DNA from: Bactericera cockerelli
Lineage: Eukaryota > Arthropoda > Insecta > Hemiptera > Triozidae
Reading direction: 5' to 3'
Length of the DNA: 64,000 nucleotides
NCBI GenBank assembly: GCA_024516035.1
Contig: CM044964.1
Location: 25,536,317 to 25,600,316, forward strand
Below are positions 13,410-42,885 of the stretch, piece by piece. Within the stretch, counting starts at the first letter, position 1. Every line of letters begins with the position of its first letter. A model generated the notes under the pieces. That model did no database searches. It saw only the letters and a list, made by a program, of their open reading frames with translations, and was not told the origin of the DNA. Made by a program: the position numbers and the translations under genes.

Positions 13410-13566
13410 CTGGTGTACCTACTCCCTGTTTATACTTCCCCAACCAAACTGCTGGTCTACTCCCTGTTTATAGTTCCCCAGCCAGACTGCTGGTCTACTC
13501 CCTGTTTATACTTCCCCAACCAAACTGCTGGTCTACTCCCTGTTTAAAGTCCCTCAGCCAGACTTA
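13410..13566 (+). repeat. 38-bp tandem repeat, about four copies
   Basis: Units of the form actgctggtctactccctgt followed by ttatacttccccaaccaa repeat about four times with alternating variants (acttccccaaccaa or agttccccagccag). Confidence 0.85.
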
Positions 13567-13639: not shown

Positions 13640-13826
13640 CTTGAAGTCGCATATGTTCGGGTGCTGGTACCTATACACGAGGTGCTCCGACGTGGTGTAC
13701 CACCCACACATGATGGGCACGAAGGAGATGACGGCGGGCGACACCCAGACGTTGAGAAGCATGAAGGCCACCACTCTCTTGGTCATGTTGATGGGGTACT
13801 TGAGGGGCTTCACGATGGCGTAATAC
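13640..13826 (-). CDS. Octbeta1R-like: Beta-adrenergic-like octopamine receptor, exon C (TM4, ECL2)
   Basis: This exon completes the Arg codon of the DRY motif and encodes receptor residues 137-199: YYAIVKPLKYP (intracellular loop 2), TM4 (about 154-176, with the conserved Trp at 164 in NVWVSP) and extracellular loop 2 (GWYTT to NICDFK). Cys196 is the expected partner of Cys112 in the TM3-ECL2 disulfide. The acceptor on the minus strand is ctcaccatccccag, and the exon starts with the third base of an Arg codon. The donor after CDFK is gtgagt. Length is 187 nt, entering in phase 2 and leaving in phase 0. Loop 2 and TM4 look closest to insect Octbeta1R by memory, and the subtype is an inference. 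The next exon (TM5 onward) was not found at lower coordinates. Confidence 0.93.
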
Positions 13827-14535
13827 CTGGGGATGGTGAGGAGATAGAACATTAATAAAAATTAAAAAAAAAAAAAATATTAAAAAAATTAAAAAATTAA
13901 ATTTTTAAAAAATACTTCTGATTCATCATCATAGGGTAGCGTCCACGATGGCGTAATACCTGGGGATGGTGAGAAAGTAAAATATTAATAAAAATTAAAA
14001 AAAAAAAAAATTGAAAATTAAAATTTGAAAATACTTCCGATTCATCATCATAGGGTGGCGTCCACGATGGCGTAATACCTGGGGGTGTTGAGAAGATAAA
14101 ACATTAATAAAAATTAAAAATAAAATAAAAAACTAAAATTAAAAAATTAAAATTTGAAAATACTTCCGATTCATCATCATAGGGTGGCGTCCACGATAGC
14201 GTAATACCTGGGGATGTTGAGAAAACATTTGAAAACACTTCCGATTCATCATCATAGGGTGGCGTCATGGTCATAATAATAATGACAGTAAGGGGGATAG
14301 CCACGGGAGAGAAAAAGATGGACTACACAAAGTCGATCATAAAATAACCTCCCCACATTATGAACCAAACAACTTCAGGAGACTTGATCTTCGGATCCGC
14401 TCCTGAAGTTACAACACCAGGAGAATTGATCATATGATCCGCTCCAGGTGTGATACCCTTTGGAAGGTGATGATTGCCTTCCAAAGGAGAGAAAGTGAAT
14501 AATAATAATGATAGTAATAATATTAATGATAATAA

Positions 14536-14625
14536 AGGCCACCACCCTCTTGGTCATGTTGATGGGGTACTTGAGGGGCTTCACGATGGCGTAATACCTG
14601 GGGATGGTGAGAAGATAAAACATTT
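14536..14625 (-). pseudogene. Longer partial duplicate of exon C (copy 4)
   Basis: Besides the acceptor, this copy retains about 62 bp of exon C, coding YYAIVKPLKYP through RVVAF. It then breaks off into ATT-type microsatellite (attatcattaatattatta when reversed). It has no donor site and no TM4, so it is a fragment rather than an alternative exon. Confidence 0.88.
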
Positions 14626-14671
14626 AATAATAATAATAATAATAATAATAATGCTTTTTCTTTGTGTTATT

Positions 14672-14937
14672 ATGTCACAATTTTAGTGGGTAGCGCAGAA
14701 CCATAGGACTTTACCACTTTAATTTACAATATCTTGTATTATTTTTTTGCCTAAGATTCTGCCACTGGTCGCTGCTTCACATTAAAGCAGCTACTCATTT
14801 TTCCTCACGAGGTATGAGTGGACCCCGAACATCCAAGTACAGAGCAGAAAAAATCCTCCCCTGCTGGGAATCGAACCCAGGTCACCATGTGTGCAATGCC
14901 TAGCGCGCTAACTCGCTCTGCCACAGTGACTACATAA
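14672..14937 (-). mobile_element. SINE family E, long copy inside the array
   Basis: Head (B box ctgggttcgattcccagc, inverted) at the right, then a body including gttcggggtccactcatacc, and an end with ctgcgctacccactaaaatt. It matches 51005-51270 closely and lies between two groups of acceptor copies. Confidence 0.88.
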
Positions 14938-15255
14938 AAAACATTTGAAAATACTTCAGATTTATTATTATTATTATTAACTGATCTGGTTGCAGGCTTC
15001 ACGATGGCGTAATACCTGGGGATGTTGAGAAGATAAAACATTTGAATTTACTTCCGATTCATCATCATAGGGTGGCGTCCACGATAGCGTAATACCTGGG
15101 GGGATGTTGAGAAGATAAAACATTTGAAAACACTTCCGATTCATCATCATAGGGTGGCGTCCACGATAGCGTAATACCTGGGGATGGTGAGAAGATAAAA
15201 CATTTGAAAATACTTCCAATGAGGGGCTTCACGATGGCGTAATACCTAGGGGGAT

Positions 15256-15672
15256 GTTGAGAAGATAAAACAATTGAAAACACTTCCGATTCATCATCAT
15301 AGGGTGGCGTCCACGATAGCGTAATACCTGGGGATGTTGAGAAGGTAAAACATTTGAAAATACTTCCGATTCATCATCATTGGGTGGCGTCCACGATAGC
15401 GTAATACTTGGGGATGTTGAGAAGGTAAAACATTTGAAAATACTTCCGATTCATCATCATAGGGTGGCGTCCACGATAGCGTAATACCTGGGGATGTTGA
15501 GAAGGTAAAACATTTGAAAATACTTCCGATTCATCATCATAGGGTGGCGTCCACGATAGCGTAATACCTGGGGATGTTGAGAAGGTAAAACATTTGAAAA
15601 TACTTCCGATTCATCATCATAGGGTGGCGTCCACGATGGCGTAATACCTGGGGATGTTGAGAAGATAAAACA
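15256..15672 (-). repeat. 80-bp acceptor satellite block
   Basis: Five copies sit at an exact 80-bp spacing (15327, 15407, 15487, 15567, 15647). Each monomer joins the exon C acceptor and 16 coding bases to a family H end (gacgccaccctatgatgat) and then a spacer gaatcggaagtattttcaaa. The copy at 15407 reads cccaag instead of ccccag and still keeps an AG. Confidence 0.92.
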
Positions 15673-15795
15673 TTAATAAAAATTAAAAAAAAAAATTAAA
15701 AATTAAAAAATTAAATTTTTAAAAAATACTTCCGATTCATCATCATAGGGTGGCATCATGGTAATAATAATAATGATAGTAATAATAATAATGAT

Positions 15796-15885
15796 AATAA
15801 AGGCCACCACTCTCTTGGTCATGTTGATGGGGTACTTGAGGGGCTTCACGATGGCGTAATACCTGGGGATGGTGAGAAGATAAAA
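15796..15885 (-). pseudogene. Longer partial duplicate of exon C (copy 14)
   Basis: As in copy 4, the acceptor and about 62 bp of exon C are kept, followed by an ATT-rich microsatellite. It is nearly identical to copy 4, so the two share an origin. Confidence 0.88.
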
Positions 15886-16205
15886 CATTTGAAAACACTT
15901 CCGATTTATTATTATTATTATTAACTGATCTGGTTGCAGGCTTCACGATGGCGTAATACCTGGGGGTGGTGAGAAGATAAAACATTTCAAAACACTTCCG
16001 ATTTATTATTATTATTATTAACTGATCTGGTTGCAGGCTTCACGATGGCGTAATACCTGGGGGTGGTGAGAAGATAAAACAATTGAAAACACTTCCGATT
16101 TATTATTATTATTATTAACTGATCTGGTTGCAGGCTTCACGATGGCGTAATACCTGGGGATGTTGAGAAGATAGAACAATTGAAAATACTTCCGATTTAT
16201 TATTA
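15866..16205 (-). repeat. 97-bp acceptor satellite block
   Basis: The copies at 15862, 15959, 16056 and 16153 are spaced exactly 97 bp. Each monomer joins acceptor, exon start through gtgaagcc, the tail of SINE family G (tgcaaccagatcag), an ATT/AAT run, and atcggaagtgttttcaaatg. A complete family G SINE lies directly to the right (16205-16529). Confidence 0.9.
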
Positions 16206-17801: not shown

Positions 17802-17911
17802 CTGTCCACGCTGATGCAGCAGAGATGCAGAATGCTCGCGGTGGAGAAGTAGACGTCGAAACTGTTCCACACGTCACACATGAAGTAGCTGAAGTTCCAC
17901 TTTCCCGTCAC
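17802..17911 (-). CDS. Octbeta1R-like: Beta-adrenergic-like octopamine receptor, exon B (TM3)
   Basis: This 110-nt exon encodes receptor residues 101-136. [10 protein letters not shown] is extracellular loop 1, with Cys112 at the top of TM3. TM3 contains [12 protein letters not shown], where Asp119 corresponds to D3.32, the residue that binds the amine of octopamine. HLCCISVD leads into the DRY motif. The acceptor is ttcctccgccag and the donor gtgagt. The exon begins in phase 0 and ends with two bases of the DRY arginine codon, which exon C completes. The 22-bp minisatellite of intron 1 ends 12 bp upstream of its acceptor. The fit to exons A and C in phase and in receptor order supports one gene. 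Confidence 0.93.
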
Positions 17912-17924
17912 CTGGCGGAGGAAA

Positions 17925-18131
17925 GCTCAACTATTAGATGCTCTTAGCTCAACTATTAGATGCTCTTAGCTCAACTATTAGATGCTATTAGATCAACTAT
18001 TAGATCAACTATTAGATGCTCTTAGCTCAACTATTAGATCAACTATTAGATGCTACTAGCTCAACTATTAGATGCTCTTAGCTCAACTATTAGATGCTAT
18101 TAGCTCAACTACTAGATGCTATTAGCTCAAC
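17925..18131. repeat. 22-bp minisatellite, first block (about nine units)
   Basis: Units of gctcaactattagatgctat plus ta, with variants (gctctta, gctacta, gatcaac). It begins 12 bp from the exon B acceptor. On the transcribed strand each unit holds ctaat, a match to the loose branch-point consensus. Confidence 0.93.
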
Positions 18132-18391
18132 TGAATCGTGATATGCAAAAAGGGCTTCAGTCAGTAAAAATTCAAAATGGAGATAAGCTCACCAAAAATT
18201 ATTTTAATACTCTGCCGATCTTTCTATACAAAAAGGGTCTCTGTGACATACACCTTCATTGAAATAATAAGAACTTAGTGTAGATGTTTTATGTAAAAGA
18301 GACCTCAGTCAATGACTTACAAAGCTCAGAAGATGTAGCTCAGGTCAACAAGGAGATGTTGACTGAAGCCCTTTTTGCATATCACGATTCA
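18132..18391. mobile_element. Inverted-repeat element with 31-bp ends
   Basis: The first 31 bases, starting tgaatcgtgatatgcaaaaa, are repeated inverted at the end (18361-18391). The 260-bp element interrupts the minisatellite. It has no transposase and is MITE-like. A second internal similarity pairs aaaaagggtctctgtgac with the complement of gcctcagtcaatgac-like sequence only weakly. Confidence 0.75.
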
Positions 18392-18637: not shown

Positions 18638-19862
18638 TTTTTAGATGCTATTAGCTCAACTATGAGATGCTATTAGCTCAACTATTAGATGCTACTAGCT
18701 CAACTATTACATGCTATTAGCTCAACTATTAGATGCTATTAGCTCAACTATTAGATGCTATTAGCTCAACTATTGGATGCTATCAGCTCAACTATTGGAT
18801 GCTATTAGCTCAACTATTAGATGCTATTAGCTCAACTATTAGGTGCTATTAGCTCAACTATGAGATGCTATTAGCTCAACTATTAGATGCTACTAGCTCA
18901 ACTATTAGATGCTATTAGCTCAACTATTAGATATTATTAGCTCAACAATGATAACTATTAGATGCTCTTAGCTCAACTATTAGATTCTATTAGCTCAACT
19001 ATTGGATGCTATCAGCTCAACTATTAGATGCTATTAGCTCAATTATTAGATGCTCTTAGCTCAACTATTAGATGCTATTAGCTCAACTATTAGATGCTAT
19101 TAGCTCAACTATTAGATGCTATTAGCTCAACTATTAGTTGCTCTTAGCTCAACTATTAGATGCTCTTAGCTCAACTATTAGATGCTATTAGCTGAACTAT
19201 TAGATGCTATTAGCTCAACTATTAGATGCTATTAGCTCAACTATTAGATGCTATTAGCTCAACTATTAGATGCTATTAGATCAACTATTAGATGCTATTA
19301 GATCAACTATTAGACGCTATTAGCTCAACTATTAGATGCTCTTAGCTCAACTATTAGATGCTCTTAGCTCAACTATTAGATGCTCTTAGCTCAACTATTA
19401 GATGCTATTAGCTCAAATATTAGATGCTATTAGCTCAACTATTAGATGCTATTAGCTCAACTATTAGTTGCTCTTAGCTCAACTATTAGATGCTCTTAGC
19501 TCAACTATTAGATGCTATTAGCTGAACTATTAGATGCTATTAGCTCAACTATTAGATGCTATTAGCTCAACTATTAGATGCTATTAGCTCAACTATTAGA
19601 TGCTATTAGCTCAACTATTAGATGCTATTAGATCAACTATTAGACGCTATTAGCTCAACTATTAGATGCTCTTAGCTCAACTATTAGATGCTCTTAGCTC
19701 AACTATTAGATGCTCTTAGCTCAACTATTAGATGCTATTAGCTCAAATATTAGATGCTATTAGCTCAACTATTAGATGCTATTAGCTCAACTATTAGATG
19801 CTATTAGCTCAACTATGAGATGCTATTAGCTCAACTATTAGATGCTATTAGCTCAACTGTTA
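18638..19862. repeat. 22-bp minisatellite, main block with 330-bp higher-order repeat
   Basis: About 55 units of the same 22-bp sequence. Rare variants recur at an exact 330-bp (15-unit) distance: gctgaactat at 19191 and 19521, tagacgctat at 19311 and 19641, and ctcaaatatt near 19412 and 19742. A 15-unit block was therefore duplicated as a whole. Confidence 0.93.
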
Positions 19863-19874
19863 GTTCCAAGTGTA

Positions 19875-21055: not shown

Positions 21056-21355
21056 CTGTACACTGGCGTTGAACGTCATGGCCAGCATCGCCACCAGCAT
21101 GTCAGCAAAGGCCAGACTCACGACGAAATAGTTGGTGATGATGCGCAGCTTCCGATGGCGCATGACAGACACGATGACCAGGAGGTTGCCTCCGATGGAA
21201 GCGAGGATGATGAAGATCATGATGGACGCCCGGAGCGTCATCCAAATGATGGAGCCGACATTCTCATCCGGCAACGCTGCGTCCGTGACGTTGACACCAC
21301 CGGGCAGGGCTCCGTCGAAGATGGCGGATTCCGTCAAGATGGCGGATTCCGTCAT
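21056..21355 (-). CDS. Octbeta1R-like: Beta-adrenergic-like octopamine receptor, exon A (N-terminus, TM1-TM2)
   Basis: A 300-nt first coding exon, residues 1-100. The start is fixed by an in-frame TGA six bases upstream of the ATG, and A at -3 favours initiation. The extracellular N-terminus is short, with an N-glycosylation site (NVT at 22-24) and a duplicated TESAI unit. TM1 spans about 42-64 with the conserved Asn57 (GGNLLV). [11 protein letters not shown] is intracellular loop 1. TM2 holds LAFADML with the conserved Asp85. The donor is cag/gtgcgt in phase 0, joining VQ to the VTG of exon B. These receptors couple octopamine to Gs and raise cAMP in neurons and muscle (family knowledge). 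[15 protein letters not shown] and FNASV are hallmarks of the octopamine beta class. Confidence 0.94.
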
Positions 21356-28389: not shown

Positions 28390-28612
28390 TTGGTTTTAAC
28401 GTCGCTTTCAACTGCATGGTCATATCACGACGGGGGTGTTACCCTCCATTCACAGGAAACTCACAAACCTGCTACCCACATTAACCTCACCCAGCCTGGG
28501 TTGCGTCGGAATGCCAGCATCACGAAGTCTTCACCTCGCTGGACGTTGCTTAACTTCGGTGATCCAACGAGAACCGGTGCATTCAACGCGCCATCGACGC
28601 TGGCTTACTTAG
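28390..28612 (-). mobile_element. SINE family F (5S rRNA-derived), best 5S head
   Basis: On the minus strand it starts with gcgttgaatgcaccggttct, cgttggatcaccgaagttaa, gcaacgtccagcgagg. These segments line up in order with the middle of animal 5S rRNA (family knowledge). The core agcctgggt... (inverted) and the tail gatatgaccatgcagttgaa follow. A T24-like run at the left end is the poly(A) equivalent. Confidence 0.88.
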
Positions 28613-42773: not shown

Positions 42774-42885
42774 CATCATCATCATAGGGTGACGTCATCG
42801 TGAACGATGGTTGCCAGACAGTGGAGGAATGACTCAGCACTTCTACCACTGTCTTTACAAGGAGGCTAATAAGAGTAATACTACT
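42774..42885 (+). repeat. Repeat family H
   Basis: Contains catcatcatagggtgacgtc, gccagacagtggaggaatga and gcacttctaccactgtcttt. Confidence 0.85.

Follow-up and report, generated by a model that had tools for sequence, protein, structure and literature searches.

The intron between exons B and C of a beta-type octopamine receptor gene of the psyllid Bactericera cockerelli holds the acceptor of exon C in 17 extra copies, as an array that fits the structural definition of a mirage, the name given in lancelets to tandem repeats of intron-exon boundaries. It is quite likely that the array is a minisatellite of the mirage kind, raised by tandem duplication of the junction, and that its decoy acceptors (the extra copies) are silent or almost silent. 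At least five distinct junction arrays, this one among them, occur in the genome. What is new is the setting: splice-junction minisatellites in a psyllid, several of them in one genome and of both splice-site kinds. Coordinates refer to the window, the whole stretch of 64,000 nt that was analysed, except where another locus (L number) is named.

The receptor gene and the junction array

The exons of the gene are read on the minus strand and, together with the parts of the array and the further junction arrays, are listed in Table 1. Joined, exons A, B and C gave an open frame of 199 codons. The B-C intron (3,975 nt) splits the codon for the arginine of the DRY motif, leaving its first two bases at the end of exon B. 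Exons B and C together matched the PF00001 (7tm_1) profile of the rhodopsin-like receptors (E 9.7e-25), and their best match among solved structures was the octopamine b2 receptor of PDB entry 9m55 (E 1.8e-40). Matches to the exons for TM5, TM6 and TM7 (D, E and F) were found outside the window, in locus L042, so that the gene looks complete. The gene is a beta-type octopamine receptor, a rhodopsin-like GPCR, and has the features of that class. Among the 120 of 607 protein matches listed, its best named relatives were from psyllids, with 93% identity to a protein of Cyamophila willieti (81% covered) and 83% to one of Cacopsylla melanoneura (95% covered).

Table 1. Exons of the receptor gene, parts of the array in the B-C intron, and further junction arrays. 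Window coordinates are given where no locus is named; a slash within a sequence marks the splice junction; copy numbers of the further arrays include the true site.
Feature	Location	Strand	Description
Exon A	21056..21355	-	start codon to TM2, 100 codons; donor CAG/GTGCGT
Exon B	17802..17911	-	TM3; last bases GACAG, donor GTGAGT
True exon C	13640..13826	-	YYAIVKPLKYPINM... to ICDFK; donor AAG/GTGAGT
Whole junction array	13827..16205	-	17 extra acceptor copies, the lead of the true acceptor and two inserts
Three 97-bp-type units	15863..16153	-	copies at 16153, 16056 and 15959
Long copy	15648..15862	-	63 nt of exon C, no difference by comparison with exon C
Eight units	15016..15647	-	80-bp-type linker at 15647, 15567, 15487, 15407 (AG lost), 15327, 15177 and 15095; 68-nt unit at 15245
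97-bp-type copy at 15015	14598..15015	-	split by an insert that is SINE-like, tRNA-derived and has an (ATT)n tail; flanks AAATGTTTT
Second long copy	14208..14597	-	1 difference of 63; another insert interrupts the unit at 14597
Last three decoys and lead of the true acceptor	13827..14207	-	copies at 14207, 14078 and 13959
Exon D of the same gene, exon end and donor	L042, about 4607-3885 (G000:C10)	-	12 copies; GT in 10 of 11 extra copies
Octopamine receptor paralogue L041	4856-6120		8 copies of the TM6 exon end with GTGAGA
Octopamine receptor paralogue L044	4318-5560		18 copies; GT in 16 of 18, read from the listing
L045, second locus copy of L044	3309-3545		5 copies
L046, another receptor, and L047, its second locus copy			minus strand; 26 and 17 copies (up to 6 mismatches)

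Both strands of the window were scanned for the acceptor core with up to 5 errors. The scan returned 18 cores, the true exon C and 17 extra copies. Every one is on the minus strand and falls between 16159 and 13811; the first exon bases of the copies span 16153 to 13959. The initial annotation had described a satellite built from the acceptor of exon C itself, with 17 decoys met by the transcript between exon B and the true exon, and this description was right. It had also held the AG to be intact in every copy, which is true of 16 of the 17, the copy at 15407 following CCCCAA. Ten of the extra copies have the 80-bp-type linker, GACGC(C/T)ACCC; four are of the 97-bp type, two are long and one is of 68 nt. 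Between 16 and 63 nt of exon C follow the junction in the extra copies. An AT-rich lead with TTAAT is common to the copies at 14078 and 13959 and to the true acceptor, and since the lead of the true acceptor is itself array-like, the array has exon C as its last unit.

The scores given by TRF (1111 for the 80-bp block and 690 for the 97-bp block) show that the array is not a chance arrangement. A 161-base array probe was searched against the 565-Mb genome (1,032 contigs) and gave at least 15 matches, all inside the array and at the true junction; the search scores the best candidates only, and its match counts are lower bounds. A satellite spread through the genome was unsupported, the probe matching at this array alone among the best candidates. 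An assembly artefact, by which the array or its length would be an assembler error, was judged scarcely probable: assemblers have difficulty with the copy number of such arrays and apparent second copies of several loci are present in the assembly, but the units are heterogeneous, two inserts lie inside the array, and other genes have distinct junction arrays of their own.

At the upstream edge of the array the intron reads ...CCCTGCAAACCAGATCAG...AATCGGAAGT...CCCCAG, and in the 97-bp units GTGAAGCC of exon C is fused to TGCAACCAGATCAG; such a fusion would result from simple tandem duplication spanning the junction. The 80-bp-type units take their linker from the end of a dispersed repeat that has three further copies in the window, at 42796 (minus strand), 13317 (minus strand) and 26689 (plus strand). 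The repeat that supplies the linker is roughly 80 bp or more in length. From these joins we infer a mechanism and an order of events in which the junction of the intron with exon C, made up of the intron end and the first 16 to 63 nt of the exon, would have been duplicated locally in tandem, with joins at short sequence matches or within pieces of the dispersed repeat. Unequal exchange or slippage would have made the array grow later, and the functional acceptor would simply be the last unit. The 0 and 1 differences between the long copies and exon C point to an array that is probably young; exchange with the true exon would look alike, and the intron-derived parts of the units differ more.

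Gain of the B-C intron by duplication was considered as well, and no direct evidence for it was found; the paralogues at L009 and L011 cross the DRY site within one exon. The best named relative of the L011 paralogue is from Diaphorina citri (84%). L011 and L012 (G000:C10:1960178 and 1525135) are near-identical receptor loci 435 kb apart, and the L012 copy is frame-shifted around the DRY motif. A 22-bp minisatellite lies in the A-B intron (17924-18132 and 18641-19863); it comes within about 12 nt of the exon B acceptor and copies no exon sequence.

Mirages and other repeated splice sites

The initial annotation knew of no described satellite made from the splice junction of a coding exon. That view does not stand, as the mirages of lancelets (PMC3087553, PMC3902484) are of the same kind, one that is known but seldom described. 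They are tandem repeats of intron-exon boundaries and were found in the lancelet Adh, troponin C, globin and PGBD5 genes; RT-PCR suggests regular splicing despite their presence (PMC3087553). The unit of the window array likewise spans an exon-intron boundary of its host gene, here in 17 extra copies, and many but not all units keep the splice-site dinucleotide (AG in 16 of 17). In the lancelet work, mirage units of 10 to 160 bp combine the 3' end of the intron with the 5' part of the exon (BflGb6) or comprise the 3' boundary of the exon (BflGb9), AG or GT is present in many units and copy number is variable. The two haplotypes of BflGb6 have 6 and 3 units, in contrast to the 17 extra copies in the window. 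The psyllid case differs further from the lancelet mirages in its insect host, in the presence of acceptor and donor arrays in one gene, and in the two inserts, and it was read from DNA.

Another minisatellite made of a splice site is that of the human gene IFI6 or 6-16 (G1P3), which provides multiple splice donors and gives rise to several mRNAs (Turri 1995, as cited in PMC4526556 and PMC2572611). The human array contains donors only, and its units are used as donors according to these citing sources, whereas the window array consists of acceptors and was read from DNA. No report of junction arrays in insects was found among the titles and openings of abstracts listed from the open-licence literature.

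Such arrays set near-identical splice sites side by side, the main differences being position and downstream context, and these natural competition tests could reveal the weight of exon definition, branch point and order in the choice of the true site. The arrays may also bear on the seeding of new introns, as was proposed for lancelet globin genes (PMC3087553).

Splice signals and reading frames of the decoys

The AG that is kept in the 16 copies is CAG in 15 and TAG in one. Pyrimidines made up 0.80 to 0.85 of the 20-nt lead in 16 of the 17 decoys, 0.65 in the remaining one and 0.85 in the true acceptor; by this measure, decoy and true acceptors differ little. The motif TTAAT, which we take to be branch-point-like, was present in the AT-rich lead of the true copy and of three of the 17 decoys (15647, 14078 and 13959).

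Donor strength was expressed in bits by a donor matrix that was not derived from a data set, and this applies to every donor value in bits given here. The true acceptor has a donor of 12.1 bits 187 nt downstream. For 16 of the 17 decoys the best donor at 20 to 400 nt reached 5.3 bits or less; the last decoy (13959) lies 320 nt from the 12.1-bit donor of the true exon. A 3' splice site beside a 4-kb intron is expected to require exon definition. With strong donors present only for the true exon and for 13959, exon definition predicts that most decoys are skipped. The true acceptor thus probably wins by exon definition, and if any decoy is used, the prediction points to 13959. The latter decoy has both the donor of the true exon and a lead with TTAAT and is not excluded by exon definition, which counts against the reading of silent decoys. 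The suggestion made earlier, that the real acceptor prevails by signals that were not copied, gains indirect support from the lack of a donor above 5.3 bits at 16 of the 17 decoys, against 12.1 bits for the true exon.

Nine of the copies with AG, if spliced to exon B, would read RYYAIVDATL and then stop. The tenth YYAIV copy reads DATQ and stop, and is the one that has lost its AG; the remaining 7 copies encode other residues and have later stops if read without further splicing. All 17 copies reach an early stop when read in this way. The expected outcome of using an 80-bp-type copy, a receptor that ends just after TM3 (YYAIV, DATL, stop), was accordingly read in the nine copies with AG.

A rival to silent decoys is that they are used at a real rate, giving truncated transcripts that are mostly targeted to NMD, so that the array would attenuate expression of the receptor and its copy number would act as a dial on receptor output. 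The AG and the pyrimidine content of all but one of the leads (0.80 to 0.85, against 0.85 in the true acceptor) would suit such use, as would the early stops and the varying copy number between locus copies of similar arrays (see below). Against it stand the weak donors of 16 of the 17 decoys, at most 5.3 bits at 20 to 400 nt, the lancelet mirages, reported as not disturbing splicing (PMC3087553, PMC3902484), and the similar rate at which exon intervals and control DNA are struck (see below). On balance this reading is unlikely. A broader form of it, in which junction arrays would be frequent in the psyllid and their copy number a heritable, fast-mutating dial, acting through decoy competition or unit-by-unit splicing at CAG/GT with output tracking array length, is very unlikely.

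The array might instead be a chain of weak recursive splice sites, the use of a decoy being self-correcting by resplicing from copy to copy and finally to exon C. Like recursive ratchet points, described in PMC8605326 as juxtaposed acceptor and donor sites, 16 of the 17 copies juxtapose AG/GT (CAG in 15, TAG in 1); the units, 68 to 418 nt long, start with GT and, with one exception, end with AG, so exon B joined to any copy would regenerate CAG/GTATTA. The regenerated donor, however, scores 4.9 bits, compared with 12.1 bits for the donor of exon B itself, and the ratchet points of that source are single conserved sites, unlike the weak and repeated junction found here. A cryptic exon with a downstream donor is said to be required (PMC8605326), and 16 of the 17 copies are without one above 5.3 bits within 400 nt by the donor matrix, the copy at 13959 having one. 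Because the donor half is weak and the downstream donor missing, recursive splicing through the array was rated low, as a highly improbable reading.

Further junction arrays and the edges of exons

Beyond exon C, all of the junction arrays found in the genome are at donors. The arrays at exon C, at exon D, at L041, at L044/L045 and at L046/L047 are the five that can be told apart. The window gene itself carries a donor array (exon D) in addition to its acceptor array (exon C). When the threshold was set at 3 mismatches or fewer, the arrays of L046 and L047 counted 22 and 12 copies; some of their units are short and hold little beyond the donor. L044 and L045 are 91 to 99% identical in blocks outside the array, and L046 and L047 are 81 to 89% identical with the array included; either pair may be alleles or duplicates. 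Copy number was unlike within both pairs (18 versus 5, and 26 versus 17), as is expected of unstable minisatellites, and the window array was present at one place in the assembly.

The 33-bp arrays at L025 and L027 were rejected as junction arrays, as their sequence adjoins an acceptor and copies intron alone. A profile search with PF00520 gave no tight tandem sets and was uninformative, the PF00001 rows also having missed known arrays. A 38-bp minisatellite, seemingly the same by eye, occurs downstream of exon C (13419-13564) and downstream of the donor array of L045 (3651-3802).

Receptor exon loci were compared with themselves, and nearby control intervals of equal length were treated likewise; the comparison covered receptor genes only. 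The first set was run on 30 loci, of which L035 (cut by a contig end, with a faulty interval) was dropped to leave 29, and the exons of the window itself (L010 and L014) were kept out of both interval sets. Three or more direct repeats were found in 3 of 29 exon intervals and in 13 of 116 controls, and at least one repeat in 4 of 29 and 19 of 116, respectively; the three exon intervals were those of L015 and L016, which are copies of a single gene, and of L025, with its intron-only array. In the further set, several of whose 12 genes were shared with the first, three or more repeats occurred in 0 of 12 exon intervals and 5 of 48 controls. These figures are rough: the octopamine receptor arrays came from other routes, exon pieces with fewer than 24 nt of matched coding sequence escape the test, and some control windows fall in the same arrays as the exon matches. 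An affinity of minisatellites for exon edges was thus unsupported, exon intervals being struck about as often as nearby DNA. Since exon intervals were hit no more than their surroundings, the arrays are most likely neutral minisatellites, and we infer both this neutrality and the silence of the decoys.

Variation in the exon-derived and intron-derived parts of the units was compared in five arrays. For the window array, 15 copies including the true one were counted, with three copies that have indels set aside, and 5 of 240 exon-derived cells were variable versus 21 of 375 intron-derived cells (p 0.04). In L044 the counts were 7 of 342 and 25 of 288 (p 0.0002); both p values are too small, as cells that share descent are not independent. 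No difference between the two parts was seen in L041, L046 and L047. The lower variation of the exon part in the window array and in L044 is not predicted by plain neutrality; it would also result if units were exchanged with the true exon, or if AT-rich sequence changed faster.

Complex minisatellites (period and copy number of at least 20 and three, low-complexity units excluded) occupied 6.7% of the window, a share that counts this array; in ten fetched loci, mostly chosen for their arrays, they occupied 5.1 to 30.1%. Elsewhere in the window, positions 28512-28604 on the minus strand matched 5S rRNA (53.4 bits) over only 93 nt, perhaps as a pseudogene or a 5S-derived element.
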